NCBI GenBank assembly: GCA_031291305.1
Contig: JARLJH010000044.1
Span: 1-55,333 of the forward strand
Reading direction: 5' to 3'
Length of the DNA: 55,333 nt
Source of the DNA: Rhodoferax sp.
GTDB taxonomy: Bacteria > Pseudomonadota > Gammaproteobacteria > Burkholderiales > Burkholderiaceae_C
Below the pieces are notes generated by a model. The model had not been told where the DNA came from. It made no database searches and saw only the letters and a list, made by a program, of their open reading frames with translations. Below, piece after piece: positions 891 through 51,958 of the stretch. A program made the translations under genes and the position numbers. The stretch's first letter is position 1, and each line of letters opens with the position of its first letter.

Positions 891-940
891 TTTTTTTGAT
901 AGCTTTAAGCCAATATAAGATGTGGGCGAAAGGCCAAAAG
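891..940 (-). repeat. Dispersed short repeat, copy A (cheW-cheR gap)
   Basis: Read on the minus strand this segment begins GGCCTTTCGCCC and ends AAAGCTATCAAA, matching the core pattern of the other copies (GGCC..TAGCCC ... AGCTATCAAA). It fills the gap between cheW and cheR and covers the ATG at 922, which argues that this ATG is not the real cheR start. Confidence 0.6.
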
Positions 941-966
941 TTCATAAAAATATTCAAGGAGCGATC

Positions 967-1776
967 TTGCAGGTTATTGCCATCTCCGACGCCGAGTTTG
1001 CCCAGTTTCAGCGTTTCATTTATGAAGCCGCGGGCATCACCATGGCAGATGCCAAAAAGCAGCTGGTCACTGGGCGATTGAACAAGCGTCTGGCGGTATA
1101 TGAGCTCGACAGCTTTGGTGCGTATTTCAAGCTCCTCAAGTCGGGCCTGCACCCTAACGAAGTGCAGATGGCGGTTGACCTGTTGACCACCAATGAGACC
1201 TACTTCTTCAGGGAAATCAAGCACTTTGAGTTTTTGCGTACGCTGGCTTTGAAGGAGCGCAGTCGCCCGCAGCCGTTTCGGGTGTGGAGTGCAGCCAGTT
1301 CCAGTGGTGAAGAGGCTTACAGCATCGCCATGGTGCTGGCCGATTGCATGCAGACCACGCCATGGGAGGTTCTGGGCACCGACATCAGCACCCGTGTCAT
1401 TGATGGCGCACGCAAGGCGCTGTACTCGATGGAACGCGGCCGCCACATTCCCCCCGAATTCCTGAAGCGCTTTTGCCGCAAGGGCGTTGGACCCTACGAG
1501 GGACAATTGCTGGTGGATCGCAGTCTGCGCAGTAAAGTGACGTTTCGCCAGGTCAACCTGAACGCCACACTGCCCGAGCTGGGGCAGTTCGACATTGTTT
1601 TTCTACGAAATGTGATGATTTATTTCAACAACCAGACCAAACGCGAAGTGGTGGCGCGGGTCATCTCCACCATCAAGCCCGGAGGCTACTTTTGCGTGGG
1701 GCATTCTGAAAGTCTCAATGACATCACACAGGCGGTGAAGATGGTGGAAACGGCGATTTACCGCAAGGGAGCCTGA
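967..1776 (+). CDS. cheR: Chemotaxis protein methyltransferase CheR
   Basis: CheR methylates glutamates on chemoreceptors with S-adenosylmethionine as donor. The protein shows the N-terminal helical CheR domain (ISDAEFAQFQRFIYEAAGI) and then the SAM-binding fold with VWSAASSSGEEAYS and DIVFLRNVMIYF. I chose the TTG at 967 (269 residues, near the family norm). It has an AAGGAG ribosome-binding site at 956-961, five bases away, and the protein then begins QVIAISDAEF. An in-frame ATG at 922 would add 15 residues, but it lies inside a dispersed repeat and lacks a ribosome-binding site. cheD follows after one base. Confidence 0.93.
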   Translation: MQVIAISDAEFAQFQRFIYEAAGITMADAKKQLVTGRLNKRLAVYELDSFGAYFKLLKSGLHPNEVQMAVDLLTTNETYFFREIKHFEFLRTLALKERSRPQPFRVWSAASSSGEEAYSIAMVLADCMQTTPWEVLGTDISTRVIDGARKALYSMERGRHIPPEFLKRFCRKGVGPYEGQLLVDRSLRSKVTFRQVNLNATLPELGQFDIVFLRNVMIYFNNQTKREVVARVISTIKPGGYFCVGHSESLNDITQAVKMVETAIYRKGA

Positions 1777-1777
1777 C

Positions 1778-2311
1778 TTGACTCGCCTGAAAGATTTGAT
1801 GGACATTTTCTTGCAACCAGGTGAGCTGTTTGTGGGGGATGCCAGCTTTCAGATACGCACCATTCTGGGTTCATGCGTGTCGATCACGTTGTGGCATCCG
1901 CAGGCACGTATGGGGGGTATGTCGCACTTTTTGCTGCCCACCCGCAGTGTCCCTGTGCCAGAGCACGTGCTGGACGGTCGTTACGGTGATGAAGCTTTGC
2001 AGTGGATGTTGAAAGACTTGAGAGCTGCCGGTGTCGATCCACGGCAATGCCAGGCCAAGATTTTTGGTGGTGGCAACATGTTTCCGGGTCAGCCCCGTGC
2101 CAGTGCCATCACAGTGGGGCAGCGCAATGGCGAGGCAGCCCGGTTGCTGCTGAAGAACCTGGGCATCGAGGCGGTCAGTGAAAGTCTGTTTGGCGTGGGC
2201 CACCGGCAGATCATTTTTAACGTCAGTAATGGCGATGTCTGGATGCGCCAGGTCCGGCCATCGCAGTTTGAAGTCGATTGTGAAAAAGCAGTCGAAGGGT
2301 GTGCATCATGA
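1778..2311 (+). CDS. cheD: Chemoreceptor glutamine deamidase CheD
   Basis: CheD deamidates specific receptor glutamines and can interact with CheC-type phosphatases. The 177-residue product has the family motif [15 protein letters not shown], whose Cys is the expected nucleophile, and GGMSHFLLP, which supplies the catalytic His; later come KIFGGGNMF and [10 protein letters not shown]. The start is a TTG at 1778 with AAGGGAG at 1765-1771, six bases away; an in-frame ATG at 1799 is possible but has a poorer site. It overlaps cheB by an ATGA junction, so the two are probably translationally coupled. Confidence 0.92.
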
Positions 2312-3375
2312 GCCGGATCAAGGTTTTAGTGGTGGATGATTCCGCTGTCGTGCGTCAGGTGGTCACAGGGCTGTTGTCTGCCGACCCGGATATCGAGGTC
2401 ATAGCCGCTGTGGCGGACCCGATTCTGGCCATTGCCCGCATGAAGGTGCAATGGCCTGACGTGATCGTGCTCGATATCGAGATGCCCCGCATGGATGGCA
2501 TCACCTTCTTGAAGAAGATCATGGCCGAAAAGCCCACACCGGTGGTCATCTGTTCCACGCTGGTGGAGGCGGGCGCGCAGACATCGATGGCGGCGCTGGC
2601 TGCAGGTGCTGTGGCGATCATTGCCAAGCCCAAAGTCGGTCTGAAACAGTTTCTGGAAGACGCCTCAGAAGACATGGTGAGCGCCGTCAAGGCGGCTGCC
2701 AAGGCCAATGTGAAGGCGCTTCATGTATCAGCCAAGAACACGGCCGACGTCATCATGCCGGCGGTGGACAAACACTCAGCCATGATTCAGACCACCGAAC
2801 GTGTGGTGGCGATTGGCACCTCCACGGGCGGCACACAGGCGCTTGAAGTGGTGCTGACCGGTCTGCCACGGGTTACACCTGGTATCGTGATCGTGCAGCA
2901 CATGCCCGAAAAGTTCACTGCAGCCTTTGCCGAACGGCTCAATGGCCTGTGCCAGATCGAGGTCAAGGAGGCACAAAACAATGACCGCGTCATCAACAGC
3001 CGGGCGCTGATTGCGCCAGGTGGCAAACACATGCTGCTGCGCCGCACCGGCGCGCAGTATTACGTCGAGGTGATGGATGGCCCGCTGGTCAACCGGCATC
3101 GCCCGTCGGTGGATGTGCTCTTCAGGTCGGTGGCCAAATGCGCCGGGGCCAACGCCCTGGGCGTGATCATGACCGGCATGGGCGACGACGGCGCGGCGGG
3201 CTTGGCGGAAATGCGCAAGGCCGGTGCCCGCACAGTCGCTCAAGATGAAGCCAGCTGCGTGGTGTATGGCATGCCCAAGGAGGCGGTGAAACGCGGCGGT
3301 GTTGAGAAAACCGTGCCTCTGACCGCGATTGGACGCGAAATCATGCAGCAGCTCTCAGGGGTTATGGTGCGCTGA
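2308..3375 (+). CDS. cheB: Chemotaxis response regulator glutamate methylesterase CheB
   Basis: A 355-residue CheB with a receiver domain (acidic pair DD near residues 10-11, phospho-acceptor Asp in [13 protein letters not shown], then a Lys in IAKPK) and a C-terminal methylesterase domain. The esterase triad is visible as Ser in IGTSTGG, His in IVQHMPEKF and Asp in [10 protein letters not shown]. It removes methyl groups from receptors once phosphorylated by CheA. The ATG at 2308 overlaps the cheD stop and has GAAGGG at 2294-2299. A GTG at 2299 would add three residues and is less likely. The gene converges with hemH, with 4 bp between the stop codons. Confidence 0.95.
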
Positions 3376-3379
3376 CAGC

Positions 3380-7483: not shown

Positions 7484-8812
7484 TCAGGCGGTGAGGGCGT
7501 GCACAGCTGCCACGCCGCTCATCACCGCCCCTTCCAGCGTGGCCGGGTAGGGGCCTGCCACATAGTCGCCACAGGCCAGCAGACCCGGTGCGATCTGCAG
7601 AGCAGGGCGCTGCAGGCCGGGCGTGCAGGCAAATGTGGCACGCTTTTCGATCACGGTCTGGACCGGCTGCAGGGTCAGCCCCAACTGGGTTTTCGCTTGC
7701 GCCAGCACTTGCGCCTGAACTTTGGCACGGTCACCGTGTGAAGCGCTGACGACAAACGCCAGCAGGCCTGCCGGGCCATTGAGCGCACCACGGTCAAAAG
7801 CAAATTGAGCCGGATGCGCTGCACTGCTGCGAAGCGCTAATATGGGATGGGTCAACCGGGCGTTGGTGGACCAGGCGTACACGGTGGCAATCGCTTCAAA
7901 GCGCAGGGCTTGCGCCGCGTGCGCCCAGCTTGTAATCTGACTAGATATGCTTTCAGGAGCTGTCAGCCCATATTGCATAAGGGCTAGAGCCGCATTTGAT
8001 GCAGAAGTTGCCCAGATGACCGCATCAAAGCGGTTGTCATCCAGCGAGCCCAGACCTGTGCCGCCCAGTTGCCACTGCCCGGCGCTAAACGCCAATGTTT
8101 CCACCCGTGCTTTGACGTGTACTTGGCCACCATGTTGCTGGATCCAGGTGGCCGCTGCCTGCGGGAAAAGCGCGCCGAGGTCGGTTTTGGGCAGCAGCAG
8201 GTGCGAGCCACCGGCGGCTCCGAACAGCGCGTCGCGCAGTACCCTTAAAAAAACGCTGGCGCTGGCCTGGTGCGCTGGGGTGTTCAGGGCCGACACGCAC
8301 AGTGGCTCGATCAGCTCGGCGTTGATACGTGGTGTGAGTCGCTGACACAGGTCGGCCACGCTCAGCGATGCATCGCACACAAAGCCCTGGCGTTGCCAGC
8401 CCATGGCGGCGCGCAGCAGCGACCATTTATCAGACCACGACCAGCCGCGCGCACTCAAAATGCCACCGAGTGCGTCCAGCGGCGTTGGCCAGTTAGGGAA
8501 GCGGATGCCGCGGTCATCGGGAAACTGCAAGGTCATCGGCAGGTCCAGCAGCGCCTCGCGGGGTTCGATGCCGACGGTGCGCATCAGGCGCAGCGTCTCA
8601 CTGTAGGCACCAATCAGAATATGTTGACCGTTGTCCAGCGTGACGGGTGTACCATCAGGTAATAAGCTTTTTAGGGCTCTAGCCCTTCCACCATAAGCAT
8701 CGGTAGCTTCAAAAACAGTAGCGGAGTGACCGGCCTGGATGGCGGTTACGGCGGCGGTCAGACCGGCCCAGCCAGCCCCCACAATGGCAATCTTCAAGCC
8801 AGCAGCCGCCAC
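7484..8812 (-). CDS. hpnE: Hydroxysqualene dehydroxylase HpnE
   Basis: HpnE is an FAD-dependent amine-oxidase/phytoene-desaturase-like enzyme that reduces hydroxysqualene to squalene, the last step of the HpnCDE route. The 442-residue product opens with the dinucleotide motif IAIVGAGWAGLTAA, then FEATDAYGGRAR and DNGQHILIGAY, all typical. The C-terminus has LLACGDYVAGPYPATLEGAV, the FAD-contacting end. The start is a GTG at 8812, 6 bp after the hpnD stop, so it is probably translated by coupling; no strong ribosome-binding site is seen. Two copies of the dispersed repeat lie inside the gene (7950-7996 and 8671-8715), in opposite orientations. Confidence 0.9.
   Translation of the reverse strand: MAAAGLKIAIVGAGWAGLTAAVTAIQAGHSATVFEATDAYGGRARALKSLLPDGTPVTLDNGQHILIGAYSETLRLMRTVGIEPREALLDLPMTLQFPDDRGIRFPNWPTPLDALGGILSARGWSWSDKWSLLRAAMGWQRQGFVCDASLSVADLCQRLTPRINAELIEPLCVSALNTPAHQASASVFLRVLRDALFGAAGGSHLLLPKTDLGALFPQAAATWIQQHGGQVHVKARVETLAFSAGQWQLGGTGLGSLDDNRFDAVIWATSASNAALALMQYGLTAPESISSQITSWAHAAQALRFEAIATVYAWSTNARLTHPILALRSSAAHPAQFAFDRGALNGPAGLLAFVVSASHGDRAKVQAQVLAQAKTQLGLTLQPVQTVIEKRATFACTPGLQRPALQIAPGLLACGDYVAGPYPATLEGAVMSGVAAVHALTA
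7950..7996 (-). repeat. Dispersed short repeat, copy B (inside hpnE)
   Basis: On the minus strand it reads GGCTCTAGCCCTTATG near its start and GGGCTGACAGCTCCTGAAA at its end, with an internal inverted pair AGCCC/GGGCT. It lies in frame within hpnE and encodes part of the segment ALALMQYGLTAPES. Confidence 0.6.
8671..8715 (+). repeat. Dispersed short repeat, copy C (inside hpnE)
   Basis: The plus strand shows TAGGGCTCTAGCCCTTCC and then GGTAGCTTCAAAAA, the same layout as the other copies but in antisense orientation to hpnE. It overlaps codons for the conserved GGRA motif and the following loop, so part of the match may reflect coding constraint. Confidence 0.45.
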
Positions 8813-13889: not shown

Positions 13890-13913
13890 AAAAAACAAAC
13901 AAAAGGACGCATT

Positions 13914-14077
13914 GAGGCAGGTCTCCTGGCTCTCAGCTCAACGCGTTTCGCAGGCCTTCCCGGACGCGTCCAGTGGCTACGTTTGGCGAAACGCTTGCCG
14001 ATTACAGTTGCGGGGGCAGCGCCGGTATTCAGGTCAATGACCTGGCACCGGCTTCCCTTTTCATCCCATCGCGGGAA
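13914..14077 (-). promoter_or_regulatory. Cobalamin riboswitch upstream of nrdAB
   Basis: Read on the minus strand, the segment has the conserved blocks of the AdoCbl riboswitch in the right order: AAGGGAAGCCGGTGCCAGG, then GCGCTGCCCCCGCAACTGTA with ATCGGCAAGCG, then GCCACTGG, CCGGGAAGGC and finally the B12 box AGCCAGGAGACCTGCC. The element ends about 178 nt before the nrdA start. Cobalamin riboswitches normally lower expression when adenosylcobalamin is present. In front of a class I reductase they are known from genomes that also hold a B12-dependent class II enzyme. Exact ends are approximate. Confidence 0.95.
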
Positions 14078-14092
14078 CCATCAATGGCAGAA

Positions 14093-14098
14093 AGTATA
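14093..14098 (-). promoter_or_regulatory. Candidate -10 box of the nrdAB promoter
   Basis: TATACT on the minus strand, about 17 nt upstream of the riboswitch. The matching -35 region (about 14116-14121) is weak. The two NrdR-like boxes lie just upstream of it, which fits a repressible promoter. Sequence match only. Confidence 0.4.
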
Positions 14099-14309: not shown

Positions 14310-15161
14310 TTATCGGGGCCCCGGCTTCATCCAAAGTGCACGCCACAGCAACACCGGCACATCCCACGCGGAGAGTTTGGGGCGGGCCCGCCAGGTGGTG
14401 CAGCCCATGGCCTCGATCTTGTCCAGTATCCGCAGGCCTCCTTGCACCACCAGCCGTAGCTCCCAGCCAGCGCGTCCCGGTATCTTGAACGGCAATTCAG
14501 AGCCTTTTAGCATCAAAGCCCTTGCGATGCTTGCACAATCAGCTATCAATAGCGCAGCACCTTCGGACTGACTGGTTGGCAGAAAATCGGCCTCAGTGAG
14601 GCCAAAACGGGTCAATGATTCTTGGGTGATGTACCAGCGTCCGCGCGCAGCGTCCACGCTGACGTCCTGCCAGAAGTTAATGAGTTGCAAGGCGCTGCAA
14701 ATATGGTCGCTTTTCTCCAGCGATACCTTGTCTTGCACACCATACAGGTGCAGCAGCAAGCGGCCGATCGGGTTGGCCGAGCGGCTGCAGTAGTCCAGCA
14801 GTTCAGTGTCATTCGCATAGCGGCGTTGCTCGGCGGTGTAGCGCACATCCTGCTCAAAGGCGTCGAGCAAGTCTGTCAGCAAGTGCACAGGCAGATCGTT
14901 CACTTGCAAGACGTGTTGCAAGGGCTCGAACACGTTGGCCCAGCGGCTATTGCCAGCTTGCCCACTGGCGGCGGCCAGCAGGTCAGAACGGTAGGCGTGC
15001 AGTTCGTTCAAGCGCTGCTGTGCATCGGCGTTGCCTTCATCGGCTATGTTGTCTGCGGTACGGGCAAAGTGGTACATAGCCGCAATGGCTGGGCGCAGAT
15101 GTGCCGGGCATAGTAAGGAGGCCACCGGAAAATTCTCGTAGTGGGTGACGGGCTGGCTCAT
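14310..15161 (-). CDS. hpnC: Squalene synthase-like protein HpnC
   Basis: HpnC converts presqualene diphosphate to hydroxysqualene. The product (283 residues from the ATG at 15161, beginning SQPVTHYENFPVASLLCP) shows the family's first acidic region as FARTADNIADEGNAD and the second as INFWQDVSVDAARGRWYI. A GTG at 15194 would add 11 residues; neither start has a good ribosome-binding site. It is the first gene of the interrupted set hpnC-nrdAB-hpnDE, all on the minus strand, and is divergent from the RND efflux operon. A dispersed repeat (14501-14550) lies within the C-terminal third. Confidence 0.9.
   Translation of the reverse strand: MSQPVTHYENFPVASLLCPAHLRPAIAAMYHFARTADNIADEGNADAQQRLNELHAYRSDLLAAASGQAGNSRWANVFEPLQHVLQVNDLPVHLLTDLLDAFEQDVRYTAEQRRYANDTELLDYCSRSANPIGRLLLHLYGVQDKVSLEKSDHICSALQLINFWQDVSVDAARGRWYITQESLTRFGLTEADFLPTSQSEGAALLIADCASIARALMLKGSELPFKIPGRAGWELRLVVQGGLRILDKIEAMGCTTWRARPKLSAWDVPVLLWRALWMKPGPR
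14501..14550 (+). repeat. Dispersed short repeat, copy D (inside hpnC)
   Basis: The plus strand contains AAAGCCCTTGCGATGC and then AATCAGCTATCAAT. It runs antisense to hpnC and is read in frame to give part of LIADCASIARALMLKGSE. The inner bases GCGATGCTTGC form a small inverted repeat. Confidence 0.6.
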
Positions 15162-15309: not shown

Positions 15310-16509
15310 ATGCATTCGTCGCCATCCATTGCCCGGTTGTCAGGGTTGAGCCTGACTATAGCGCTCGCGTCGCTGCTGCTGGCGTGCTCCAAAACAGCCG
15401 CACCTGAGGAGCCGATCCGTGCCGTCAAAGTTATGACAGTGGGTGTGCAGCCCGTGGCTTTCGGCTTGGAATATGCTGGCGAGGTCCGCGCCCGCGTGCA
15501 ATCAAGCCTGGGCTTTCGGGTCGGCGGCAAGCTGATTACCCGCACGGTCGAGCTGGGCCGGCGCGTCAAGGCCGGCCAGGTGCTGGCGCAACTTGACCCA
15601 CAAGACCTGAAGCTGGCAGCCGATGCGGCACGTTCGCAAGTCGCTGCAGCTCTCACCAACCGTGATTTGGCAGCGGCGGATTTCAAGCGCTATCAGGCCC
15701 TGAAAGAGCAGAACTTCATCAGCTCGGCCGAACTTGAGCACCGCGACACGGCGATGAAAGCGGCTCAGGCGCAGCTGGACACGGCGCAGTCGCAGCTTTC
15801 GGCCCAGGTTAACCAAGCGGGTTACGCCAATTTGCTGGCGGACAGCCCCGGCGTCGTGACTGCCGTGCTGGCTGAGGTGGGTCAGGTCGTGGCTGCTGGC
15901 ACACCGGTGATACAGCTGGCGCAAGATGGCCCGCGTGACGTGGTGTTTGTCGTGCCCGAGGACAAGGTGGCGGCCATCAAGCTGGGCTCCAGCGTGGCGG
16001 TGCGGGTCTGGGCGGGCACCGAGCCACAAACCGCTGTGGTGCGCGAGGTGGCTGCCAGCGCGGACCCGGTGACGCGAACCTTCACCGTCAAGGCGGGCTT
16101 GTCTGCCACCAGCGACTTGGCGCTGGGCCGCACCGTGTCGGTGCTGCCCGCAGGATTGCAGCGCAGCGCCTTGCAAGTCATCAAGTTGCCCACCACTGCG
16201 CTGCGTCAGGAAGGGCAAGCGACCGTCGTGTGGGTGCTGGACACGGCCACGATGACCGTCAGGCTGCAACCTATTCAGGTGGCCACGGCCGACGGTAATG
16301 ACATTGTGGTGGCGAGTGGCTTGACACCTGGCATGCAGGTGGTGACCGCTGGTGTGCATGTGCTGACGCCGGGCCAAAAAGTCATGCTATATAAGGATAA
16401 TCAGTCTGTAGCCCTTACCAGTAAAGCACAGACAGCTATCAATGGAGTAGCTTTCGAGAACCCTGCAATTGCTTCGCCATCAGCGGCAGTGTCGGCTCCG
16501 GCGCAGTGA
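15310..16509 (+). CDS. RND efflux periplasmic adaptor (membrane fusion) lipoprotein
   Basis: A 399-residue adaptor of the HlyD/AcrA type that would link the inner-membrane pump to an outer-membrane channel. The N-terminus is a lipoprotein signal with lipobox LLAC (Cys26). It is followed by the biotinyl-lipoyl half-domains (SLGFRVGGKLITRTVELGRR and GVVTAVLAEVGQVVAAGTP) around a coiled-coil hairpin (about residues 100-165), then beta-barrel and membrane-proximal domains. The last 40 residues contain a dispersed repeat and are probably a flexible tail. Seven bases separate its stop from the permease start, so the two form an operon, with no outer-membrane component nearby. The substrate is unknown. 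Confidence 0.92.
   Translation: MHSSPSIARLSGLSLTIALASLLLACSKTAAPEEPIRAVKVMTVGVQPVAFGLEYAGEVRARVQSSLGFRVGGKLITRTVELGRRVKAGQVLAQLDPQDLKLAADAARSQVAAALTNRDLAAADFKRYQALKEQNFISSAELEHRDTAMKAAQAQLDTAQSQLSAQVNQAGYANLLADSPGVVTAVLAEVGQVVAAGTPVIQLAQDGPRDVVFVVPEDKVAAIKLGSSVAVRVWAGTEPQTAVVREVAASADPVTRTFTVKAGLSATSDLALGRTVSVLPAGLQRSALQVIKLPTTALRQEGQATVVWVLDTATMTVRLQPIQVATADGNDIVVASGLTPGMQVVTAGVHVLTPGQKVMLYKDNQSVALTSKAQTAINGVAFENPAIASPSAAVSAPAQ
16402..16444 (+). repeat. Dispersed short repeat, copy E (inside the efflux adaptor gene)
   Basis: Contains GTCTGTAGCCCTTACC and then AAAGCACAGACAGCTATCAA; GTCTGT and ACAGAC form an inverted repeat. It is read in frame as QSVALTSKAQTAIN in the C-terminal tail of the adaptor, the same frame as copies G and K. 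Confidence 0.7.
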
Positions 16510-25977: not shown

Positions 25978-26013
25978 TAGGTTTAATAGATGCAAATCTT
26001 GGTTTGCATCCAC

Positions 26014-26089: not shown

Positions 26090-26094
26090 TATTT

Positions 26095-26124: not shown

Positions 26125-26134
26125 AGCAGGTTTT

Positions 26135-33683: not shown

Positions 33684-36600
33684 ATGCAAAATATGCTTGT
33701 AGCCTTTGTAAAGCGTTCGCAAGTAGCTATGCTTTTTATGGCATTCTGCTTCGCCCTTGGTTCAGTGCATGGCACGTTGATTCGGTTTGATTTGAGGGCG
33801 GTGGTGTGCCATTTCAAGCGCTTTACGGCGTTGCTTGTTGCGGTTTCGTTTTGCGGGTTGGCCACTGCCGCCACCTACACTCTGCCGGATAACCCGCCCG
33901 CGGGATGCAGTGCAACGTCAAGTACCAGTGTCACTTGTTCAAGCCTGAGTCTGAACTGGGCTGACAGCGTTGTCGTCAGCAATGCCAATTTAACCCTGAC
34001 AGTGACCAATGGGGTCAACTTTGGAGGCAACAACAATATCAACATCAGCAATCCCGTCGCGGGTTTTGTGCTTTATGCGCAAACGGTCACAGTAAGTAGT
34101 AGTAACAACATCAATTTGAATGGCGGCATCAACACTTCCGGGTCCTTGACCCTCAGCGGCGGTGCCAACAATATTACGGGCAATCTCAGTGCAGGCGGCG
34201 ATATCCTCATTGGGGGGACCGTCACGGGCACTGTGACGGCCTCTGGCAGTCTGGTGACTCAGTGGGCCACAACGATCACCGGCAACGTCAGCGCCAGTAG
34301 CATCCAAAGTGGTGGATCGAATGTCTTCGGTGGCAATCTGACGGCCACCAGCGGCAATATCACCGGCGGTTATGCCGACAAGGTGGCCGGCAACGTCAGC
34401 GCTGTCAATGTTGCATTGAGTGGTGTTTCCGCCCAAGTGCAGGGTTGTGCTACGGCGTCCAGTGGCGGGTCCATTACCCTTGCTTGGAACACAACCGTTG
34501 GTGGCGTGTGTTGCCAGTCAGCATCGGGGTGTGGCAGCAGTTGCCTCACTAACAACAGTGGCCTCCCGGCACCTGGCCTGTGTTCGCTACCGGCCCTCAG
34601 TCTGTCAAAGACCGTTAGCAGTTCGGCAGGGGTAGTGGGTGATGTGGTTACCTTCTCGATCACTGCCAGCAATACGTTTGCGACGCCATTGAGCAATGTT
34701 ATCGTCACCGACACGCTGCCGACCGGCTTGAGTTATGCCGCGAGTGCGTCAACGCTGGGAACAGTGTCGGTGTCTGGCCAAGTAATCACATGGACGGTGC
34801 CTTCCATAGCTGCCAGCGGGAATGCGCAGTTAACGCTCGCTGTGAATTTACTGGCGCAAGGCGCTTATACCAACACAGCCTCGTCGCCGGGCGCTACCAA
34901 TGCCAGTGCGTCAATTTTGGTACTTCCTGCGGCGACAACAGACTTTCGCATGGATGAACCAGCAGGCTCTTGGACGGGCGCCGCTGGTGAGGTTCTGGAC
35001 AGTGGTGGTACTGGCTTGCAAGGCCGTCGGGTGACGACATCGACGCCGACAACAACCAACGCGGTGTCACCTAGTCCCACGATTGCGGCGCAGAATTCTT
35101 CTGTTGTCGGCGGTTTTTGCAATGCCGGCAATTTCGATGGCAAGGCTGTGGTGACGGTGTCTAGCAATCCATTGCTTCAATACACCAACAAGCTGTCGGC
35201 ATCGGCCTGGATTTATCCGACGGTTTACCCATCAAGCGATTTGTATTCAATTCTGTCGAATGACGTAAATTACGAATTTCACATCAATCCTTCTGGCAAG
35301 CTATATTGGTGGTGGCAGGCGTCCGACCTCACTTCCAATACTACGATTCCACTGAACAAGTGGACACACGTGGCCATCACCATGGATTCATCAACATCTG
35401 GGGGGCGTGAACGTATCTATGTCAATGGCGTTCTTGACACCAATACCAACAGTTGGAAAGGCACGTTGGCGACGAATAATTGCGATTTTTACATAGGGGG
35501 TGACATCGGTACTAATACCGGGTGTGCCCTGATTCCAGCACGCAACTTTCACGGCATGATTGACGAAGTCAAGTTGTACAACTATGAGTTGTCCGCTGCC
35601 GAGGTACAGGCCGACATGACGCTGGGCAGATCATGCTCGGGGTCCTACGACCACATTCAGATTGAACATGATGGTGTTGGGTCTGTCTGCACGCCTAAAA
35701 CGGTGGTAATCAAAGCCTGCCTCGATGCCGCATGCAGCACGCTTTACACCGGTAACGTGACTCTGAACATGGCTACACCCACGGGTGCCAGTTGGGTCAA
35801 TGGGGCGACTTTCAGCTTCAGCGGTGGTATCACGACACGGCAACTCAGCGACGGTACGGCGGGCACCGTGACGTTAGGAACTAGCAGTGCGTCGCCGCTA
35901 GCAACCAATGCAACCATTTGCAAGGTCAACGGTGTGACAAACTGCAGCATGAGCTTCGCTGCCGCGTCGTGCGCCTTCGATGCGGTGGAGTCAGGTGCTG
36001 CACCCCACACCCGCATCTACACCAAACTGGTGGGCACCAATTTCAATATCGATGTGCTGGCCATGGGCTCGGGGACCAATATCAACACGACCTATGCAGG
36101 CACGGTGAATGTGGATTTGGTGGATGCTAGTACCTCGGGCTGTCCCAGCAGTGCCGGGTTGACGACGGCTGCTCCTTTGGTTTTTGTCTCTGGTAACGGT
36201 GGCCGCAGATCTATCACGTTCAACTACCCAAAAGCTGCGCGCAATGTCCGGGTGCGCGCCCAAGTGGGCAGCACCACGCCAGCGTGTTCAACGGACAACT
36301 TCGCCATACGCCCGACAACCTTTTCATCAATTTATTCGACCGACGCCAATGCGGACAGCACCGGGCAGAGTGCATCTGCAACCCCTGCCGTCAAAGCAGG
36401 CACCACGTTCAATGTGACGGTCGACACCAATAAGGTGGGATATGACGGCACACCCAAAGTCAATGGTGCACTTTTAGAGTGGCCCTACGTGCCTGTTGGC
36501 GGCAGGGCTTCGCCAGGGGTTGGCAATTTGTCCGGTGGCCCGGTTTTTTCTGGTGCTGCGTCAGTTAGCACTGGTAATGGTGCCAGTGGTAGTTTTACTT

Positions 36601-37739
36601 ATGATGAAGTGGGCTACTTCCGCTTCAAGGCAGATGGCGTGTATGACGACACCTTCACGGCGACGTCTGGTGACCAGGCGGGAGGAGATTGTGTGGTTGG
36701 CGACTTTTCGAACACGCTCAATGCGAGCGGAAAATACGGTTGCAATTTTGGAAACACATCCGTAAGCAACCATATTGGGCGTTTTATACCGGATCATTTT
36801 GCAGTGACGTCCTCGTCGTTTGCACCAGGGTGTGGCACGTTTACCTACATGGGACAGACGTTTTCGACGTCGGCAACGGTGCAGGCTCAGAACGCTGGTG
36901 GTGGCAAGACCAGCAACTTCAGCGGCTCCTTCTTTGGCAGTGCCACTGTGGTACCCGAGCTTGAAAATGCCAATGATGGTGTCAGCCTGAGCGTGGCTCG
37001 CCTGACGGGTTTGGGCACTCCCACTTGGGCTGGCGGCGAGTACCCTTTTGTGGCTACCGGGTTTGCCAGGCTCGCGACACCCGATGGTGCCTACGATAGT
37101 CTGGACATCGGTTTGAAAGTGTTGCCACTCAATGCCACTGACACCGCCAGTTTGATCAATCGCGACATGGCTGCCAGCACGACCGTATGTACTGCCGATG
37201 GCACGGGCACGAGCAATGGCACTTGCACCGCCAAGCGCATTGCCACCAGCACTAAAGTTCGCTTTGGCCGCCTGCGTCTGCAAAATGCCTTTGGCTCGGA
37301 AAAGTTAGCCTTGCCTGTGCCATTGCAAGCCCAATACTGGAATGGTGGCTTCTTTGTGAACAACGCTGATGACAGTTGCACGGCGCTAAGCGTGCCAGCA
37401 GTCCAAACGTTGGCAACAGGTGCTACACCGGCGGGTGCGCCAGGTTTGTATTTTTACCCTGTGATTACCGGTAAAAACCAGTTGCAGAGCAGTAGTACGG
37501 TGCCGACTCTGAACAGCCCGCTGACGACAGGTCAGTCCACCTTGCAGTTTCCCGCACCGCAACAACCGGGTTGGCTTGACATCATTTTGCAGGTCCCCAA
37601 CTACCTGATGGGTAATTGGGGTAACTGCAGTGGTCAGACGGGAGCCGCTGGTTTATACGACGATTTGCCTTGTGCCCGTGCGACCTTTGGCATTTATGGG
37701 CCAAAATCCCCCATCATTTATCGACGTGAAAACTACTGA
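33684..37739 (+). CDS. mshQ: MshQ-like large pilus tip or surface protein (DUF11, LamG, DUF6701)
   Basis: Up to 1351 residues. After a signal peptide comes a repetitive beta-rich region full of short NITGN/SGSLT-like units (about 70-270). Next are a DUF11 repeat (about 304-405: LSLSKTVSSSAGVVGDVVTF), a LamG/concanavalin-like lectin domain (about 418-642: KLSASAWIYPTVYPSS ... GMIDEVKLYNYELSAAEV) and a C-terminal DUF6701 region (about 870-1351, FAIRPTTF to IYGPKSPIIYRRENY). Its place after mshP and its size suggest an adhesin at the pilus tip. The first 40 codons contain a dispersed repeat. A second, better signal peptide (FTALLVAVSFCGLATAA) follows a GTG at 33804 with GAGGG five bases upstream, so the true start is probably 33804. 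Confidence 0.85.
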   Translation: MQNMLVAFVKRSQVAMLFMAFCFALGSVHGTLIRFDLRAVVCHFKRFTALLVAVSFCGLATAATYTLPDNPPAGCSATSSTSVTCSSLSLNWADSVVVSNANLTLTVTNGVNFGGNNNINISNPVAGFVLYAQTVTVSSSNNINLNGGINTSGSLTLSGGANNITGNLSAGGDILIGGTVTGTVTASGSLVTQWATTITGNVSASSIQSGGSNVFGGNLTATSGNITGGYADKVAGNVSAVNVALSGVSAQVQGCATASSGGSITLAWNTTVGGVCCQSASGCGSSCLTNNSGLPAPGLCSLPALSLSKTVSSSAGVVGDVVTFSITASNTFATPLSNVIVTDTLPTGLSYAASASTLGTVSVSGQVITWTVPSIAASGNAQLTLAVNLLAQGAYTNTASSPGATNASASILVLPAATTDFRMDEPAGSWTGAAGEVLDSGGTGLQGRRVTTSTPTTTNAVSPSPTIAAQNSSVVGGFCNAGNFDGKAVVTVSSNPLLQYTNKLSASAWIYPTVYPSSDLYSILSNDVNYEFHINPSGKLYWWWQASDLTSNTTIPLNKWTHVAITMDSSTSGGRERIYVNGVLDTNTNSWKGTLATNNCDFYIGGDIGTNTGCALIPARNFHGMIDEVKLYNYELSAAEVQADMTLGRSCSGSYDHIQIEHDGVGSVCTPKTVVIKACLDAACSTLYTGNVTLNMATPTGASWVNGATFSFSGGITTRQLSDGTAGTVTLGTSSASPLATNATICKVNGVTNCSMSFAAASCAFDAVESGAAPHTRIYTKLVGTNFNIDVLAMGSGTNINTTYAGTVNVDLVDASTSGCPSSAGLTTAAPLVFVSGNGGRRSITFNYPKAARNVRVRAQVGSTTPACSTDNFAIRPTTFSSIYSTDANADSTGQSASATPAVKAGTTFNVTVDTNKVGYDGTPKVNGALLEWPYVPVGGRASPGVGNLSGGPVFSGAASVSTGNGASGSFTYDEVGYFRFKADGVYDDTFTATSGDQAGGDCVVGDFSNTLNASGKYGCNFGNTSVSNHIGRFIPDHFAVTSSSFAPGCGTFTYMGQTFSTSATVQAQNAGGGKTSNFSGSFFGSATVVPELENANDGVSLSVARLTGLGTPTWAGGEYPFVATGFARLATPDGAYDSLDIGLKVLPLNATDTASLINRDMAASTTVCTADGTGTSNGTCTAKRIATSTKVRFGRLRLQNAFGSEKLALPVPLQAQYWNGGFFVNNADDSCTALSVPAVQTLATGATPAGAPGLYFYPVITGKNQLQSSSTVPTLNSPLTTGQSTLQFPAPQQPGWLDIILQVPNYLMGNWGNCSGQTGAAGLYDDLPCARATFGIYGPKSPIIYRRENY
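33690..33732 (+). repeat. Dispersed short repeat, copy G (5' end of mshQ)
   Basis: Contains ATGCTTGTAGCCTTTG, then AAAGCG and AAGTAGCTATGC. If translated it reads LVAFVKRSQVAML, the same frame as copies E and K. It probably lies upstream of the real mshQ start. Confidence 0.5.
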
Positions 37740-37789
37740 TTCAAGTTCTTTAAGCTTTTTTGCTCTTCATCCCTTATTCATGATGGGTA

Positions 37790-37826
37790 GATAGCTATTA
37801 AAATTAGAGCGATAGCAGCTGTCGCC
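37790..37826 (+). repeat. Degenerate dispersed repeat, copy H (mshQ-mshI gap)
   Basis: ATAGCTATTAAAATTAGAGC followed by GATAGCAGCTGTCGCC resembles the AGCTAT and TAGC ends of the family but lacks the central TAGCCC...GGGC pair. The 154-bp gap around it holds no gene. Confidence 0.3.
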
Positions 37827-44747: not shown

Positions 44748-45992
44748 ATGCTCAAACGTATCCATGTTGATCAATTGCAGGTGGGAATGCACCTGAAAGA
44801 GTTTTGCGGCTCTTGGATGGATCACCCATTTTGGCGCACTGGTTTTGTGATCAAGGATCCCAAAGACATCGAATTGATTTTGGCCAGCAAGATCAAAGAG
44901 GTGATGATTGACTGCAGCAAAGGCTTGGATGTGCCCGCTGGCGCACCAGTGGTCAGCGAGATAGAAGACACTTCGGTAGCCATAGAGTCCAAGTCCACTG
45001 AGATGGCGCCGACTATATCCCCACAGGAGATTGCTCCGGTCACAGCCAGTCAGGAAGTTGTGCGTGCCGCGCGCATTTGCCAGCAAGCCAAGGCGGCCGT
45101 GGTTTCCATGTTTGAAGAAGTACGCATGGGCAACGCCGTGGATGTGGGCGGTGCTCGCCAGTTGGTGGAAGACATTACTGAATCGGTGTCGCGCAACCCG
45201 GGGGCCATCATCAGCCTGGCGCGGCTCAAAACGGCGGATGACTACACCTACATGCACTCGGTTGCGGTGTGCGCGATGATGGTGGCGTTAGCCAAACAGT
45301 TAGGTCTGGACGAGTCGCAAACCCGGCTCTGCGCTATGGCTGGGTTGCTGCACGATGTAGGCAAGGTGGCCATGCCCACCGATGTGCTCAACAAACCGGG
45401 CAAGCTGACCGATGCCGAATTCGACATCATGCGCACCCACCCCACCGAGGGCTACAAAATGCTGATGGCCAGCAAGGGCGTTGATGCCGTGTCACTGGAC
45501 GTGGTGCTACACCACCACGAAAAAATGGACGGCAGCGGTTACCCCGAAAAGCTCAAGGGTGACGAGATCAGCCTGTATGCGAAGATGGGTGCCGTGTGTG
45601 ATGTGTATGACGCCATCACCTCCAACCGCCCCTATAAATCTGGCTGGGATCCGGCGGAGTCATTGCGCCGCATGGCCGAGTGGAAGGGGCACTTTGATCC
45701 GAAGGTGTTTCAAGCCTTTGTCAAAAGCATGGGCATTTACCCGGTGGGCTCGCTGGTGCGACTGAAGTCAGGGCGCATCGGCGTGGTAACCGAGCAGTCA
45801 GCCAAGTCGCTCACCACACCGCTGATCAAAGTATTTTTTTCCAGCAAGTCCAACATGCGGATCGTTCCGGTGATGGTTGACCTGTCGCAGCCCACCACGC
45901 TTGAAAAAATCATCTGCCGGGAAGACCCGGCCATGTGGAATTTTCCTGACCTCAATGAATTGTGGTCAGGGCTGCCCAATCTGGGCAAATAG
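44748..45992 (+). CDS. HD-GYP domain c-di-GMP phosphodiesterase (DUF3391 N-terminus)
   Basis: A 414-residue protein with an N-terminal DUF3391-like domain (MLKRIHVDQLQVGMHLKEF) and an HD-GYP domain. The metal site is HDVGK (His202-Asp203) and the signature is HHHEKMDGSGYP (Gly264-Tyr265-Pro266), followed by DVYDAITSNRPYK. All key residues are intact, so it should hydrolyse c-di-GMP. The next domain (about 325-380) is a small beta unit. No good ribosome-binding site precedes the ATG. It lies directly after mshN; in Vibrio the msh cluster begins with mshH, an EAL/GGDEF-type regulator. Confidence 0.92.
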   Translation: MLKRIHVDQLQVGMHLKEFCGSWMDHPFWRTGFVIKDPKDIELILASKIKEVMIDCSKGLDVPAGAPVVSEIEDTSVAIESKSTEMAPTISPQEIAPVTASQEVVRAARICQQAKAAVVSMFEEVRMGNAVDVGGARQLVEDITESVSRNPGAIISLARLKTADDYTYMHSVAVCAMMVALAKQLGLDESQTRLCAMAGLLHDVGKVAMPTDVLNKPGKLTDAEFDIMRTHPTEGYKMLMASKGVDAVSLDVVLHHHEKMDGSGYPEKLKGDEISLYAKMGAVCDVYDAITSNRPYKSGWDPAESLRRMAEWKGHFDPKVFQAFVKSMGIYPVGSLVRLKSGRIGVVTEQSAKSLTTPLIKVFFSSKSNMRIVPVMVDLSQPTTLEKIICREDPAMWNFPDLNELWSGLPNLGK

Positions 45993-46027
45993 GTTCCTGA
46001 TTTTCTGTCAGATGCTTGCAATTAAAA

Positions 46028-46076
46028 ATAGCCTCGAGCCCCCACAAATAATAGGTTAGAAGCTATTGATATCAAA
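46028..46076 (+). repeat. Dispersed short repeat, copy I (HD-GYP to acyl-CoA dehydrogenase gap)
   Basis: ATAGCCTCGAGCCCCCAC and then AGAAGCTATTGATATCAAA match both ends of the family. The gap holds no gene. The element lies between the convergent stop codons and might act as part of a terminator. Confidence 0.55.
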
Positions 46077-46101: not shown

Positions 46102-47379
46102 TCAGCAGCCCCGCGTGACGGGCATTTCCACTGATTTGGCGCTGGGCGCATATTTACGCAACTCCAACTTGGCAATCGCGTTGCGGTGCACTTCGTCCGG
46201 GCCGTCGGCAAAGCGCAGTGTCCGTGCGGCTGTGTAGGCGTAAGCCAGCGGAAAATCGTCGCACATACCGCCACCGCCAAAGGCCTGGATGGCCCAGTCG
46301 ATCACCTCGCAGGCCATGTTGGGCGCCACCACCTTGATCATGGCGATCTCGTTTTTGGCGAACTTGTTGCCAGCCACATCCATCATCCAGGCGGCTTTGA
46401 GGGTGAGCAGGCGCGCCATGTCGATCTTGCAGCGCGCCTCGGCGATGCGCTCCTGTGTCACGGTTTGGGCGGCGATGGGTTTGCCAAAAGCCACGCGGCT
46501 GTTGGCGCGCTTGCACATCAACTCCAGCGCGCGCTCGGCCAGGCCGATCAGACGCATGCAGTGGTGAATGCGTCCGGGTCCGAGGCGTCCCTGCGCGATC
46601 TCAAAACCCCGGCCTTCACCGAGCAAAATGCTGTCGGCAGGCACGCGCACGTTTTTGTAAGAGATTTCCATGTGACCGTGCGGCGCGTCGTCGTAGCCCA
46701 TCACATTCAAAGGTCGCATCACAGTCACACCTGGCGTATTGGCAGGCACCAGAATCATGCTTTGCTGCGTGTGACGGTCTGCCTCGGGGTTGGTCTTGCC
46801 CATGACGATGTGAACGGCACAACGTGGATCGCCCGCGCCGCTGATCCACCATTTTCGACCGTTGATGATGTAGTCGTTGCCGTCGCGCTCAATCAGCGTT
46901 TCGATGTTGGTGGCATCGCTGGAGGCGACATCCGGCTCGGTCATTGAGAACGCCGAACGCATCCGCCCTTCGAGCAGGGGCTTGAGCCACTGTAGCTTGT
47001 GTTCTTCAGATCCGTAGCGGGCAATGGTTTCCATGTTGCCGGTGTCGGGTGCCGAGCAATTGAAGACCTCGCTGGCCCATGGCACCCGGCCCATGATCTC
47101 GGCCAGCGGCGCATATTCCTGGTTGGTCAGGCCCGCACCGGCCTCGATGCCACCGGCCTGTTCGCTGTCCACTGGGTAGAACAAGTTCCACAGGTCCTGA
47201 CTCTGTGCCTTGCGTTTGAGCTCTTCAATAGTTCGCAGCGGAGTCCAGCGTTTGCCAGCTGCTGTATTGGCCTGCACCTCGGCATGGTGTGCGCCTTCGG
47301 CTGGATAGATGTAGTCGTCCATGAAACGCAGCAATTTGGCTTGCAGCTCTTTGGTTTTAGGGGAATAGTCAAAGTCCAT
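46102..47379 (-). CDS. Acyl-CoA dehydrogenase family protein (ACAD10/11-like, LvaC-like)
   Basis: A 425-residue FAD enzyme of the long ACAD11-type. Flavin-site phrases are visible: [54 protein letters not shown] and [19 protein letters not shown]. It lies just downstream of a kinase gene (47475-48560) on the same strand. Such pairs are known from levulinate metabolism in Pseudomonas (LvaA/LvaC) and from human ACAD10/11. There a phosphorylated 4-hydroxyacyl-CoA is turned into an enoyl-CoA or 3-hydroxyacyl-CoA. A plain beta-oxidation role is the alternative. Start ATG 47379 has AAGG upstream. Confidence 0.88.
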
Positions 47380-47423
47380 GGTGGCCTTACAGGGGTGGAG
47401 AGTTGAGTAAAAGTTATATAAGA

Positions 47424-47472
47424 AAACAGGGTGTAGCCCTTTTAAATAAAGGGCAAGGAGCTATCAAATTAG
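47424..47472 (+). repeat. Dispersed short repeat, copy J (dehydrogenase-kinase gap)
   Basis: GGGTGTAGCCCTTTTAAAT followed by AAAGGGCAAGGAGCTATCAAA. This is one of the clearest copies, with an AGCCCTTT/AAAGGGC inverted repeat. It is nearly the same as copy K. Confidence 0.75.
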
Positions 47473-47474
47473 TA

Positions 47475-48560
47475 TTAAATCTGTTGCACAAACTGCCAGG
47501 CCAGGTGGGCCAGTGGTCGGGCGCCTGCAGCGGCTTCAATGGCCTGTGCACTGGCAGCGGTGCCGGCTTCGACGCGTTTGCCGATGCCTTGCAAAATGGC
47601 CGCCATGCGAAACAGGTTGTAGGCCATGTAGAAGTTCCAGTCAGTGGTCAGCTGCTCCGGCGAGGTCAGCCCGGTACGCTGGCAATACTGACGGATGTAG
47701 TCGGCCTCAAGCGGGATGCCCAGAGCCTTGATGTCCAGCCCGCCAATACCTCGAAACGCGCCTGGTGTAATGTGCCAGGCCATGCAGTGGTAGCTGAAAT
47801 CCGCCAGCGGGTGGCCCAGCGTGGAAAGCTCCCAGTCGAGCACGGCAATGACGCGCGGTTCGGTTGGGTGAAACACCAGGTTGTCCATGCGGAAGTCACC
47901 GTGGACGATGCTGACCATCGCCGGGTCGCGTGCCATGGCCGGTATGTGCTCGGGCAGCCAGGCCATTAGCTGGTCCATCTCTTCAATGGGCTGGGTGATG
48001 GAGGCCTGGTATTGCTTGCTCCAGCGGCCAATCTGGCGCTCGAAATAGTTGCCGGGCTTGCCGTAGCTGGCCAGTCCCGCTGCGGTGTAGTCCACAGAAT
48101 GCAGGGCCGCGATCACGCGGTTCATCTCGTCATAAATCTCACCACGCTCAATCGGCCTCAGGCCGGGCAGGGACTGGTCCCAGTAAATGCGCCCGTTCAT
48201 GAACGACATGATGTAAAACGCTCGTCCAATGACCGTTTCGTCCTCGCACAGGCACAGCATTCGGGGCACTGGCACATCTGTGTTTGCCAGACCGGTCATC
48301 ACCGCGAATTCGCGCTCGATGGCGTGGGCGGATGGCAGGAGTTTGGCCACTGGGCCGGGTTTGGAACGCATCACATAGGTCTGGCTGGGCGTAATGAGCT
48401 TGTAGGTTGGGTTGGATTGACCACCTTTGAAAGACTCCACCTGCAATGGGCCCGCAAAGTCCTTCAGATGCTGGGTCAGCCAGTGCGCCAACGCAATTTG
48501 GTCAAAGGACTGGCCTGGTGGCACAACACGGGTGCCGGAAAAGTTGTCGTTGTTGCCCAT
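47475..48560 (-). CDS. APH-family phosphotransferase (4-hydroxyacyl-CoA kinase candidate)
   Basis: A 361-residue kinase-fold protein of the aminoglycoside phosphotransferase superfamily. It shows the nucleotide-binding lysine region ESFKGGQSNPTYKLI, the catalytic loop VHGDFRMDNLVF and the metal motif VLDWELSTLGHPLADFSY. This subgroup is not an antibiotic-resistance enzyme. Members linked to ACAD10/11-type dehydrogenases phosphorylate the 4-hydroxyl of acyl-CoAs. The dehydrogenase gene next to it supports that reading. It probably heads the two-gene transcript; a dispersed repeat fills the 95-bp gap. Confidence 0.85.
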   Translation of the reverse strand: MGNNDNFSGTRVVPPGQSFDQIALAHWLTQHLKDFAGPLQVESFKGGQSNPTYKLITPSQTYVMRSKPGPVAKLLPSAHAIEREFAVMTGLANTDVPVPRMLCLCEDETVIGRAFYIMSFMNGRIYWDQSLPGLRPIERGEIYDEMNRVIAALHSVDYTAAGLASYGKPGNYFERQIGRWSKQYQASITQPIEEMDQLMAWLPEHIPAMARDPAMVSIVHGDFRMDNLVFHPTEPRVIAVLDWELSTLGHPLADFSYHCMAWHITPGAFRGIGGLDIKALGIPLEADYIRQYCQRTGLTSPEQLTTDWNFYMAYNLFRMAAILQGIGKRVEAGTAASAQAIEAAAGARPLAHLAWQFVQQI

Positions 48561-50863: not shown

Positions 50864-50913
50864 GGTGACTCCTGATGTTGGCATGGTGGCAAACGGGGCT
50901 GGTATTAAAAACA

Positions 50914-50929
50914 CTGTTTTCATATCCAG
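50914..50929 (-). promoter_or_regulatory. LexA box 1 (lexA-asparaginase gap)
   Basis: CTGTTTTCATATCCAG matches the CTGT-N8-ACAG operator with one mismatch. It lies 51 bp before the lexA start codon. Confidence 0.75.
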
Positions 50930-50932
50930 TAA

Positions 50933-50948
50933 CTGTATTTTTAATCAG
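50933..50948 (-). promoter_or_regulatory. LexA box 2 (lexA-asparaginase gap)
   Basis: CTGTATTTTTAATCAG matches CTGT-N8-ACAG with one mismatch, 19 bp from box 1. It ends only 11 bp before the asparaginase start codon, so LexA bound here could also affect that gene. Confidence 0.75.
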
Positions 50949-50959
50949 TTTTAGAAAGC

Positions 50960-51958
50960 TTGCAAGTGGTATCTGATCAAATTTCAAAAAAAGTCGTGGT
51001 GTTGGGCACGGGCGGCACCATTGCAGGCACGGCGCAGAGTGCGTCCGACAACATTGGCTATACCGCCGCGCAGGTTGGGGTGGCACAGTTGCTGGACGGC
51101 GTGCCGGGTTTGCCTGCGGTGTTGCAGGGGCATGATCTGTGCACGGAGCAGGTGGCGCAAGTGGACAGCAAGGACATGCGCTTTGACATCTGGCTGGCGC
51201 TGGCTCAGCGCGTGGTGCACCATTTAGCACAGGCAGAAGTGAGCGCGGTTGTGATCACGCATGGCACCGACACGCTGGAGGAAACCGCTTACTTTCTGCA
51301 TGCCGTGTTGCCGCAGGATCTGATCAGTGCCAAACCCGTGGTGTTGACCTGCGCCATGCGTCCCGCCTCGGCACTGAATCCTGATGGCCCGCAAAATTTG
51401 ATGGACGCGGTGACCGTCGCCTTGACCCCTGGCTCGCACGGCGTGGTGGCGGTGTGCGCAGGCACGGTGCACGGCGGCTTGGACGTGCAAAAAGCCCATA
51501 CTTACAAGGTCGATGCTTTCACCTCGGGGGATGCTGGGCCACTGGCCTACGTGGAAGAAGCGCAGGTTAGATTATTAAGAAAATGGCCTCTAGCCCAGGT
51601 AAATAAAGGGCATGTAGCTATCAAAGATATATTGAAGGACGAGGTCTGGCCGCGCGTTGAGATCGTGATGAACTACGCTGGCTGTGATGGTCAGGTCGTC
51701 TTGGCGATGCTGCAACCGCGCGACAGTGTGGCACCACTGCGCGGTCTGGTGGTGGCGGGCACCGGCAACGGCACGCTGCACCACGATCTTGAAAGGGCGT
51801 TGCGTCAGGCTGTGCAGTCGGGGGTAAAGGTGGTGCGCTCAACCCGTTGCGCCAATGGGCGGGTGCTGCCTGTGGCCGATAGCGAATTTGCGCACTCTGA
51901 GGACTTGTCTCCCGTCAAGGCCAGAATCGCTTTGATGCTGGGGTTGATGAGCCGTTGA
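50960..51958 (+). CDS. L-asparaginase (type I/II family)
   Basis: Hydrolyses asparagine to aspartate and ammonia. The 332-residue protein has the first catalytic Thr in VLGTGGTIAGTA and the second in ITHGTDTLEETAYFL, with the conserved DGPQNLMDAV later. There is no signal peptide, so it is probably cytoplasmic. Start may be TTG 50960 or GTG 50966; neither has a strong ribosome-binding site. It is divergent from lexA, and LexA box 2 lies directly in front of it. A dispersed repeat sits inside the gene at 51581-51628, in frame. Confidence 0.92.
   Translation: MQVVSDQISKKVVVLGTGGTIAGTAQSASDNIGYTAAQVGVAQLLDGVPGLPAVLQGHDLCTEQVAQVDSKDMRFDIWLALAQRVVHHLAQAEVSAVVITHGTDTLEETAYFLHAVLPQDLISAKPVVLTCAMRPASALNPDGPQNLMDAVTVALTPGSHGVVAVCAGTVHGGLDVQKAHTYKVDAFTSGDAGPLAYVEEAQVRLLRKWPLAQVNKGHVAIKDILKDEVWPRVEIVMNYAGCDGQVVLAMLQPRDSVAPLRGLVVAGTGNGTLHHDLERALRQAVQSGVKVVRSTRCANGRVLPVADSEFAHSEDLSPVKARIALMLGLMSR
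51581..51628 (+). repeat. Dispersed short repeat, copy K (inside the asparaginase gene)
   Basis: ATGGCCTCTAGCCCAGGT, then AAATAAAGGGCATGTAGCTA and TCAAAG. It closely matches copy J in the gap at 47424-47472 yet is translated as WPLAQVNKGHVAIKD within the enzyme. Confidence 0.75.

Follow-up and report, generated by a model that had tools for sequence, protein, structure and literature searches.

The DNA analysed here, called the window throughout, is a stretch of 55,333 nucleotides from Rhodoferax sp. (contig JARLJH010000044.1, positions 1 to 55,333; assembly GCA_031291305.1) that carries copies of a 54-bp hairpin repeat. The repeat is real and widespread, and ordinary in kind. It has many copies in part of one bacterial family, lies preferentially between genes, also occurs inside genes, has persisted vertically over long times with graded decay, and coincides with extra length at two sites relative to congeners. 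It is a family of known type, resembling repetitive extragenic palindromes (REPs), and its hairpin core is already in print for Acidovorax ebreus. We consider it probable that it is an old, non-autonomous, REP-like hairpin repeat of the Comamonadaceae (a family name deduced from named records), which spread by insertion, in lineage-wise bursts, through a process acting on the folded strand.

The hairpin element

The hairpin core reads TTTTGATAGCTgcTAGCGCTT-7nt-AAGCGCTAGAGGCC. On one strand, the segments in the window consist of TTTGATAGCT, a variable triplet, an arm such as AGCCCTT, a 7-nt loop, AAGGGCT and GAGGCC. The consensus of 156 copies of length 54 is CTATTTTGATAGCTGCTAGCGCTT-TATGGAT-AAGCGCTAGAGGCCAATTTGACT, and conservation spans about 70 bp, from about -8 to +62 around the 54-bp core. 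The ends of the element differ from each other (GATAGCT at one, GAGGCC at the other). The consensus folds with 12 pairs, one mismatch and a 7-nt loop at -18.1 kcal/mol (z -2.6), and the opposite strand at -17.9 kcal/mol (z -4.1). The window copies fold more weakly (-9.8 to -14.9).

The consensus set was drawn from two sources. A pattern scan of named records gave at least 119 stretches, and 80 loci among those listed were analysed. They contain 109 matches at E<=0.001, with a GC content of 0.33-0.58. One match (L115 3345-3395, +) is the second strand of a copy already counted; the other 108 and 57 copies from the genome of the window (the own genome) and its congeners make 165, of which 156 have length 54. 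Because the selection pattern fixed GATAGCT, most arm bases and GCTAGAGGCC, conservation in the named loci is inflated. The pattern permitted a C.C stem pair.

Abundance and host range

A covariance model, R1, was trained on 11 copies from the own genome, among them the four strong window copies listed below; its E-values are rough. All counts are lower bounds, with 150 candidates scored in the own genome, 144 in the survey of congeners and the order, and 28 per genome in the family survey. The own genome (4.98 Mb) has at least 150 matches, which are the 150 scored of 1926 candidates and include the 11 training copies; 142 of them have E<1e-3. Among 24 genomes of the genus, own included, 13 are positive at E<=1e-6, with at least 1 to 89 matches each, and 11 are without the repeat. 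In the family survey, where 28 candidates were scored per genome, 42 of 200 genomes and 32 of 141 genera are positive. None of 16 genomes from other families of the order (16 families, one genome each) is positive. The genera represented in the 80 named records are Acidovorax, Rhodoferax, Simplicispira, Giesbergeria, Paenacidovorax and Comamonas, and the remaining records are labelled only Burkholderiaceae or Gammaproteobacteria. The profile counts in own and sister genomes thus bear out the proposal of a sequence-only reading of the window that the segments form a palindromic family, which proves to be mostly intergenic. Chance or coding constraint as the whole explanation is ruled out by the genome-wide counts together with the reversed control described below.

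One viral contig in IMG/VR (L321 2552-2589) has an exact match to the repeat pattern, and a phage or prophage carrier is possible.

Genomic context

Genes were called by a simple open reading frame (ORF) method, and 13 copies at open locus ends were excluded from the percentages. Between genes lie 125 of the 152 placed copies (about 82%; 81/96 in the named set and 44/56 in the own and congener set), while the non-coding share of the same sequence is about 14%, so that the intergenic bias is strong. Naively called ORFs contain 26 of the 152 copies, and seven of these count as in-gene only because the ORF begins within the repeat.

Copies that face the 3' end of a gene do so at a median distance of 29 bp (named) or 36 bp (own and congener), with 69/98 and 26/44, respectively, within 50 bp. 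For 5' ends, the medians are 62 and 93 bp, and 31/64 and 20/44 are within 50 bp. The named copies occupy 23 convergent versus 6 divergent gaps (p 0.002); background gaps of at least 60 bp in the same loci are convergent in 76 and divergent in 73 cases. The matches in the named loci are mostly single, the nearest clear pair being 207 bp apart (L141). An organisation as bacterial interspersed mosaic elements (BIMEs), which had been suggested from the window, is not apparent: no clusters occur in the 80 named loci, where decayed neighbours could escape detection.

Copies in the window and at orthologous sites

Places in the window were scored by a 36-position consensus, with positions chosen by hand and 126 of the 156 underlying copies coming from other genomes. 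The reversed window served as the control, and its top place scores 22. Against this maximum, there is support for eight places and borderline similarity for one, while two further places have none. The first nine places are:

891..944, + strand: copy at cheW/cheR (R1 51.0 bits; consensus score 27 versus 22 in the control), beginning 7 bp past the cheW ORF and entering the 5' part of the cheR ORF (922-1776; both genes named by Pfam)
16394..16447, - strand: copy within an HlyD-family adaptor gene (15310-16509, +), in the part for the C-terminal tail and shortly ahead of an AcrB-type gene (R1 52.8 bits; consensus score 28, place 16447)
47419..47472, - strand: copy J, intergenic, with an APH-family gene (47475-48560, -) on one side and an acyl-CoA dehydrogenase gene (46102-47379, -) on the other (R1 58.4 bits; consensus score 30, place 47472)
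51576..51629, - strand: copy K, within an asparaginase gene (50960-51958, +), in the linker between the Pfam domains at 11-208 and 232-329 (R1 56.3 bits; consensus score 32, place 51629)
7948..8001, + strand: decayed copy in an amine-oxidase family gene (7484-8812, -) (consensus 29 versus 22; R1 match at 7958-8001, 17.4 bits, E 0.0085)
46021..46074, - strand: decayed copy in the gap of convergent ORFs 44748-45992 (+) and 46102-47379 (-) (consensus 25 versus 22; R1 match at 46021-46074, 15.3 bits, E 0.032)
37753..37806, - strand: decayed copy 13 bp past a 1351-aa ORF (33684-37739, +) (consensus 24 versus 22; R1 match at 37753-37806, 18.4 bits, E 0.0046)
8665..8717, - strand: possible decayed copy in the amine-oxidase gene 7484-8812 (consensus 24 versus 22, place 8718; R1 match at 8665-8717, 13.5 bits, E 0.097)
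33685..33738, - strand: borderline similarity only (consensus 23 versus 22; R1 match at 33685-33730, 11.1 bits, E 0.42)

The sequence-only reading had counted at least ten segments. Four of them are strong copies, four are decayed and one is borderline; those at 14501 (R1 at 14532-14554, 11.1 bits, E 0.43) and 30210 (R1 at 30209-30231, 11.5 bits, E 0.32) do not exceed the reversed-window control and are unsupported. Copies J and K, described there as nearly the same, share 40 of 54 positions and are only similar. A first spaced pattern gave 13 matches versus 1 in the reversed control, and about 8 of the 13 resemble family copies.

Copy K and the HlyD copy share a reading frame of the repeat, with the consensus peptide NWPLAL..KALAAIKI, and the decayed copy at 7948..8001 is read in the same frame. 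The reading phase of 8665..8717 differs from that of most in-gene copies. Altogether 28 of 30 in-gene overlaps (a count that includes window copies also fetched as loci) fall in three frames. This pattern is no independent evidence, because ORFs can only traverse an open frame. In-frame copies do occur in unrelated protein genes, those for asparaginase and the HlyD-family adaptor, both Pfam-supported and with orthologues. Two further in-gene copies, L132 (6438-6491) and L054 (1501-1554), lie at about residue 280 of what seems to be the same large protein in two genomes.

The copies are old, since congeners hold copies at orthologous sites; these are decayed in many congeners and missing in others. 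At E<=1e-3, 17/30 loci (own included) have a copy at the K position, in graded states of decay, and weaker traces are found in 5/30 loci of other genera at E<0.05. In 41 of the 58 aligned rows, the asparaginase linker is 44 aa long (overall range 41-59), whether the repeat is present or absent, and a solved homologue aligns, by eye, with a linker of similar length. Third-position GC drops in the linker of repeat-bearing species. At the same position, three congeners without the DNA repeat (G073, G058 and G021) have NWPLA or NWPLT residues. K is thus old, but not a clean addition.

The J site is occupied in 6/30 loci (own included). The gap measures 95, 95, 94, 106 and 82 nt in five occupied loci and 231 nt in the sixth (G013), as compared to 28-64 nt in the 21 other measurable loci; three loci could not be measured. 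The copy in the HlyD tail is present in 14/30 loci at E<=1e-3 (own included). The adaptor of G006 stops where the copy would start; in G021, G058 and G003, the tail is short and free of the DNA repeat, with TTS-AQT-like residues encoded by GC-rich codons. At the J gap and in the HlyD tail, insertion looks additive. The tail of the adaptor (window 15310-16509, L382-L411) varies widely in length and sequence among congeners and is partly built of the repeat. For the cheW site, 17 of 30 fetched loci were available, and R1 matches also lie on the 3' side of cheW, within some 40-200 bp, in 4 of the 16 that are not from the own genome.

The idea of a mobile family gains from the extra length at the J gap and HlyD tail and loses from the unchanged linker at K. 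The likeness of J and K had been thought hard to explain by coding constraint. Such constraint may still act at K and in the HlyD tail, where repeat-free congeners keep similar residues; orthologues with the residues and without the repeat, which would speak against a DNA element, are thus found in part.

At gathering thresholds, Rfam leaves the repeat unmatched and finds in the window only a cobalamin riboswitch and five tRNAs. The riboswitch is at 13899-14097 on the minus strand (117.4 bits). Four tRNA genes are clustered at 25902-26376, and one more is at 19838-19921.

Stem-pair types

The stem pair 21-35 is G-C in 79 of the 156 copies, G.G in 43, C-G in 33 and A-C in 1. C.C is absent from this set and from an overlapping set of 130 copies. 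Taken as covariation of the two positions, these counts give a Fisher p of 6e-13 on 155 copies (the A-C copy excluded), in a test that is not clean because the copies share descent. By lineage, every Acidovorax-type group is uniformly G-C (24/24, 10/10 and 5/5), one Giesbergeria is G.G (6/6), a Rhodoferax metagenome-assembled genome C-G (4/4) and R. antarcticus G.G (4/4). In the samples with G handles, the types may be biased, since these samples are the top matches to a model that was trained on G000. They comprise G000 (19 C-G, 11 G.G), G004 (18 C-G, 2 G.G), G005 (14 G.G, 6 C-G), G010 (4 G-C, 4 G.G), G023 (5 G-C, 7 G.G), G147 (8 G.G, 2 G-C), G195 (7 G-C, 3 G.G), G202 (3 G-C, 2 G.G, 1 G-T), G264 (6 G-C, 1 G.G) and G085 (6 G-C, 1 G-T).

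At the orthologous J sites, the pair is C-G in G000, G.G in G005, and G-C in G010, G023, G049 and G013. At the K site, it is C-G in G000, G004, G070 and G040, G.G in G005 and seven others, G-C in G010 and G023, and of another kind in three. In the HlyD tail, it is G.G in 9/11 (G000 and G004 included), G-C in G002 and C-G in G019. J and K match the type of their genome in G000, G005, G010 and G023, and K also in G004. Counter to the genome type are J in G013, where 3/3 sampled copies are G.G, and the HlyD copy in G004; in G049, the types of J and K differ from each other.

This pattern suggests concerted evolution and does not prove it. Inheritance from a mixed ancestor is a possible alternative. 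That the family evolves in concert, with a stem pair typical of the lineage and never C.C, as if the hairpin of one strand must fold, is a proposition that we regard as rather unlikely.

The resident RAYT gene

REP families are commonly discussed together with REP-associated tyrosine transposases (RAYTs), and a dedicated enzyme of this kind had been suggested for the window repeats. The own genome has two Y1_Tnp genes, with ORFs of 154 aa (read as IS200-like) and 231 aa (RAYT-like), and a match to the repeat lies directly past the stop codon of the latter. A single RAYT-type gene (L071, own genome, C1:55938-59264; L072-L101; L221-L260) is kept nearly family-wide and lies, in the loci inspected, upstream of a glutamate-synthase-like gene.

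RAYT is present in 52/60 congeners and 190/200 family genomes, the latter including 40/42 repeat-positive and 150/158 repeat-negative genomes. An R1 match follows the RAYT stop codon in 6/30 congener loci at E<1e-3 (own included). Among 40 family loci (24 from repeat-positive and 16 from repeat-negative genomes), six have a match 3' and two a match 5' of the gene at E<0.05, and all of these are from repeat-positive genomes. In none of the 40 is RAYT flanked by two inverted copies; at this threshold, matches are on one side only. In G195, the RAYT-side copy is the best match listed for the genome (51.4 bits), and in the own genome it is among the weakest listed (27.9 bits).

A different motif is common at RAYT loci. 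GGGTC[AG]G upstream and its complement downstream are found in 40 of 69 parsed loci; the other 29, including that of the own genome, have the downstream complement only. In the fetched sequence, where some loci overlap, GGGGTCAGATTCC was counted 58 times at RAYT loci and 3 times outside them. RAYT looks like a domesticated transposase with a private TAATTGGGGTCAGATTCCAATTA-type repeat. We have not assigned it as the mobiliser, because its presence ignores the repeat and because it usually has different repeats of its own. As a candidate for a dedicated mobiliser, it is weakened only; the expectation of a dedicated REP transposase is nevertheless not borne out.

Origin and maintenance of the repeat

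In the reading that we favour, the whole element would have been inserted, laying down copies in bursts that differ from lineage to lineage, and the spreading process would act on the folded strand. Copies may then persist mainly where they do little harm, in gaps and often shortly past a stop codon. In gaps, the hairpin may be neutral or mildly useful for mRNA ending or protection, and copies in linkers or tails would be tolerated when the inserted frame happens to be open. Several observations weigh against this reading. K leaves the linker length unaltered, and the empty J sites could also be deletions. Target-site duplications are not convincing (at best 12/155 copies versus 2.8 expected, over about 4000 combinations), and no mobilising enzyme is tied to the repeat. 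Stem covariation does not rise above shuffles in the 11 own-genome copies. The distances to 5' ends are not much longer than those to 3' ends, and the distances have no control. The own and congener copies have no convergent preference (9 versus 9), and the bias in orientation relative to the upstream gene is not significant (48 to 30, p 0.054).

The last two points also tell against a functional 3'-end signal, be it a terminator, an mRNA stabiliser or a place where a DNA- or RNA-binding protein attaches, that selection would maintain at every site. Such a signal would explain the closeness to stop codons and the few divergent gaps among the named copies, the stable hairpin, the long persistence at some orthologous sites and the lack of any C.C pair in 156 copies. 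The context printed for the same core motif in A. ebreus, as far as the available text goes, is similar (PMC5217627). However, the copies at orthologous sites have decayed in many congeners and are lacking in others, conservation of T past the stem is limited to about three (positions 48-50), and in-gene copies are unable to act as 3' ends. We regard this explanation as rather unlikely. Slightly less credit goes to the idea that this is a genuine REP family and that the resident RAYT upstream of the glutamate-synthase-like gene moves it. The Y1_Tnp domain of the 231-aa ORF, the repeat just past its stop codon, the one-sided matches at congener and family loci and the strong copy in G195 speak for it, but RAYT presence is blind to the repeat, the gene is accompanied by the GGGTC[AG]G motif instead, and the own RAYT-side copy is weak. 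A miniature inverted-repeat transposable element of some DDE transposase would likewise be short, non-autonomous and dispersed, and would fit the insertion-like J and HlyD sites; with ends that are unlike each other, at borders that are provisional, and without convincing target-site duplications, the repeat is very unlikely to be one.

Comparison with known repeats

For Acidovorax ebreus TPSY, the accessible text of PMC5217627 gives the motif GCTTAT(N)5AAGCG, with 114 copies, 107 of them intergenic, and generally near genes; of the flanking gene pairs, 44 are convergent, 4 are divergent and 59 are co-oriented. This motif is the hairpin core of the present repeat, with the same spacing. In the fetched loci, GCTTAT and AAGCG are found 113 times at N5 and once in total at nine other spacings tried (2-11); 80 of these loci had been preselected by a pattern that fixed the arms and allowed loops of 5-9. 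What that text describes is an isolated spaced motif in one genome (PMC5217627), whereas the full element, its range, the in-gene peptides and the persistence are described here. The same source, in the part available, gives ATAGCT(N)22CAAAAG for Polaromonas naphthalenivorans (PMC5217627). Here, ATAGCT and CAAAAG are spaced by N30 and N31 (4 matches each), and identity of the two is unproven.

As in the accessible descriptions of REPs with RAYTs (PMC2817692, PMC3733652), the repeat is a short imperfect palindrome with more than 100 copies, an extragenic bias and a RAYT-type gene in the genome. Unlike them, it has no inverted pair around RAYT and no visible BIME clusters. As to a GTAG- or CGTC-type head, most copies have no GTAG at the left edge (2 of 155 copies have it, and 22 the complement CTAC); the right edge and CGTC were inspected by eye in the consensus. 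The initial classification as REP/BIME-like therefore stands for REP-like features, namely copy number, extragenic location, palindromic sequence and hairpin, and falls for BIMEs and for a RAYT flanked by an inverted pair. The beta-proteobacterial repeat element (BRE), in the text available, is about 90 bp long with 69% GC in Bordetella, often tandem, mostly intergenic and at times inside genes, and is listed for several Comamonadaceae (PMC3110155). The present repeat, with a GC content of 0.33-0.58 and mostly single copies, differs from this description (PMC3110155) and may or may not be related to BRE. In searches of one open-licence library, judged mostly from listings, we found no printed description of the full element.

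The in-frame copies in unrelated genes are, by description, also reminiscent of another family. Rickettsia palindromic elements are palindromic repeats that occur in frame within unrelated protein genes as well as between genes. They differ from the present repeat in their host, and the copies here are mostly intergenic.

Implications

What had been printed as an isolated motif is thus a repeat found across the family, for which the full consensus, the range of hosts, the bias in context and the persistence of sites from species to species are now described. Over times on the scale of a genus, it has contributed in-frame tails and linkers to ordinary proteins. The repeat is separate from the resident RAYT, and the usual REP explanation therefore does not carry over untested. 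With its lineage-wise differences, the stem pair allows the means by which dispersed short repeats remain similar to be tested directly. Concerted evolution, if true, would need either a process that corrects copies as short as 54 bp or a strand-specific binding factor that co-evolves.

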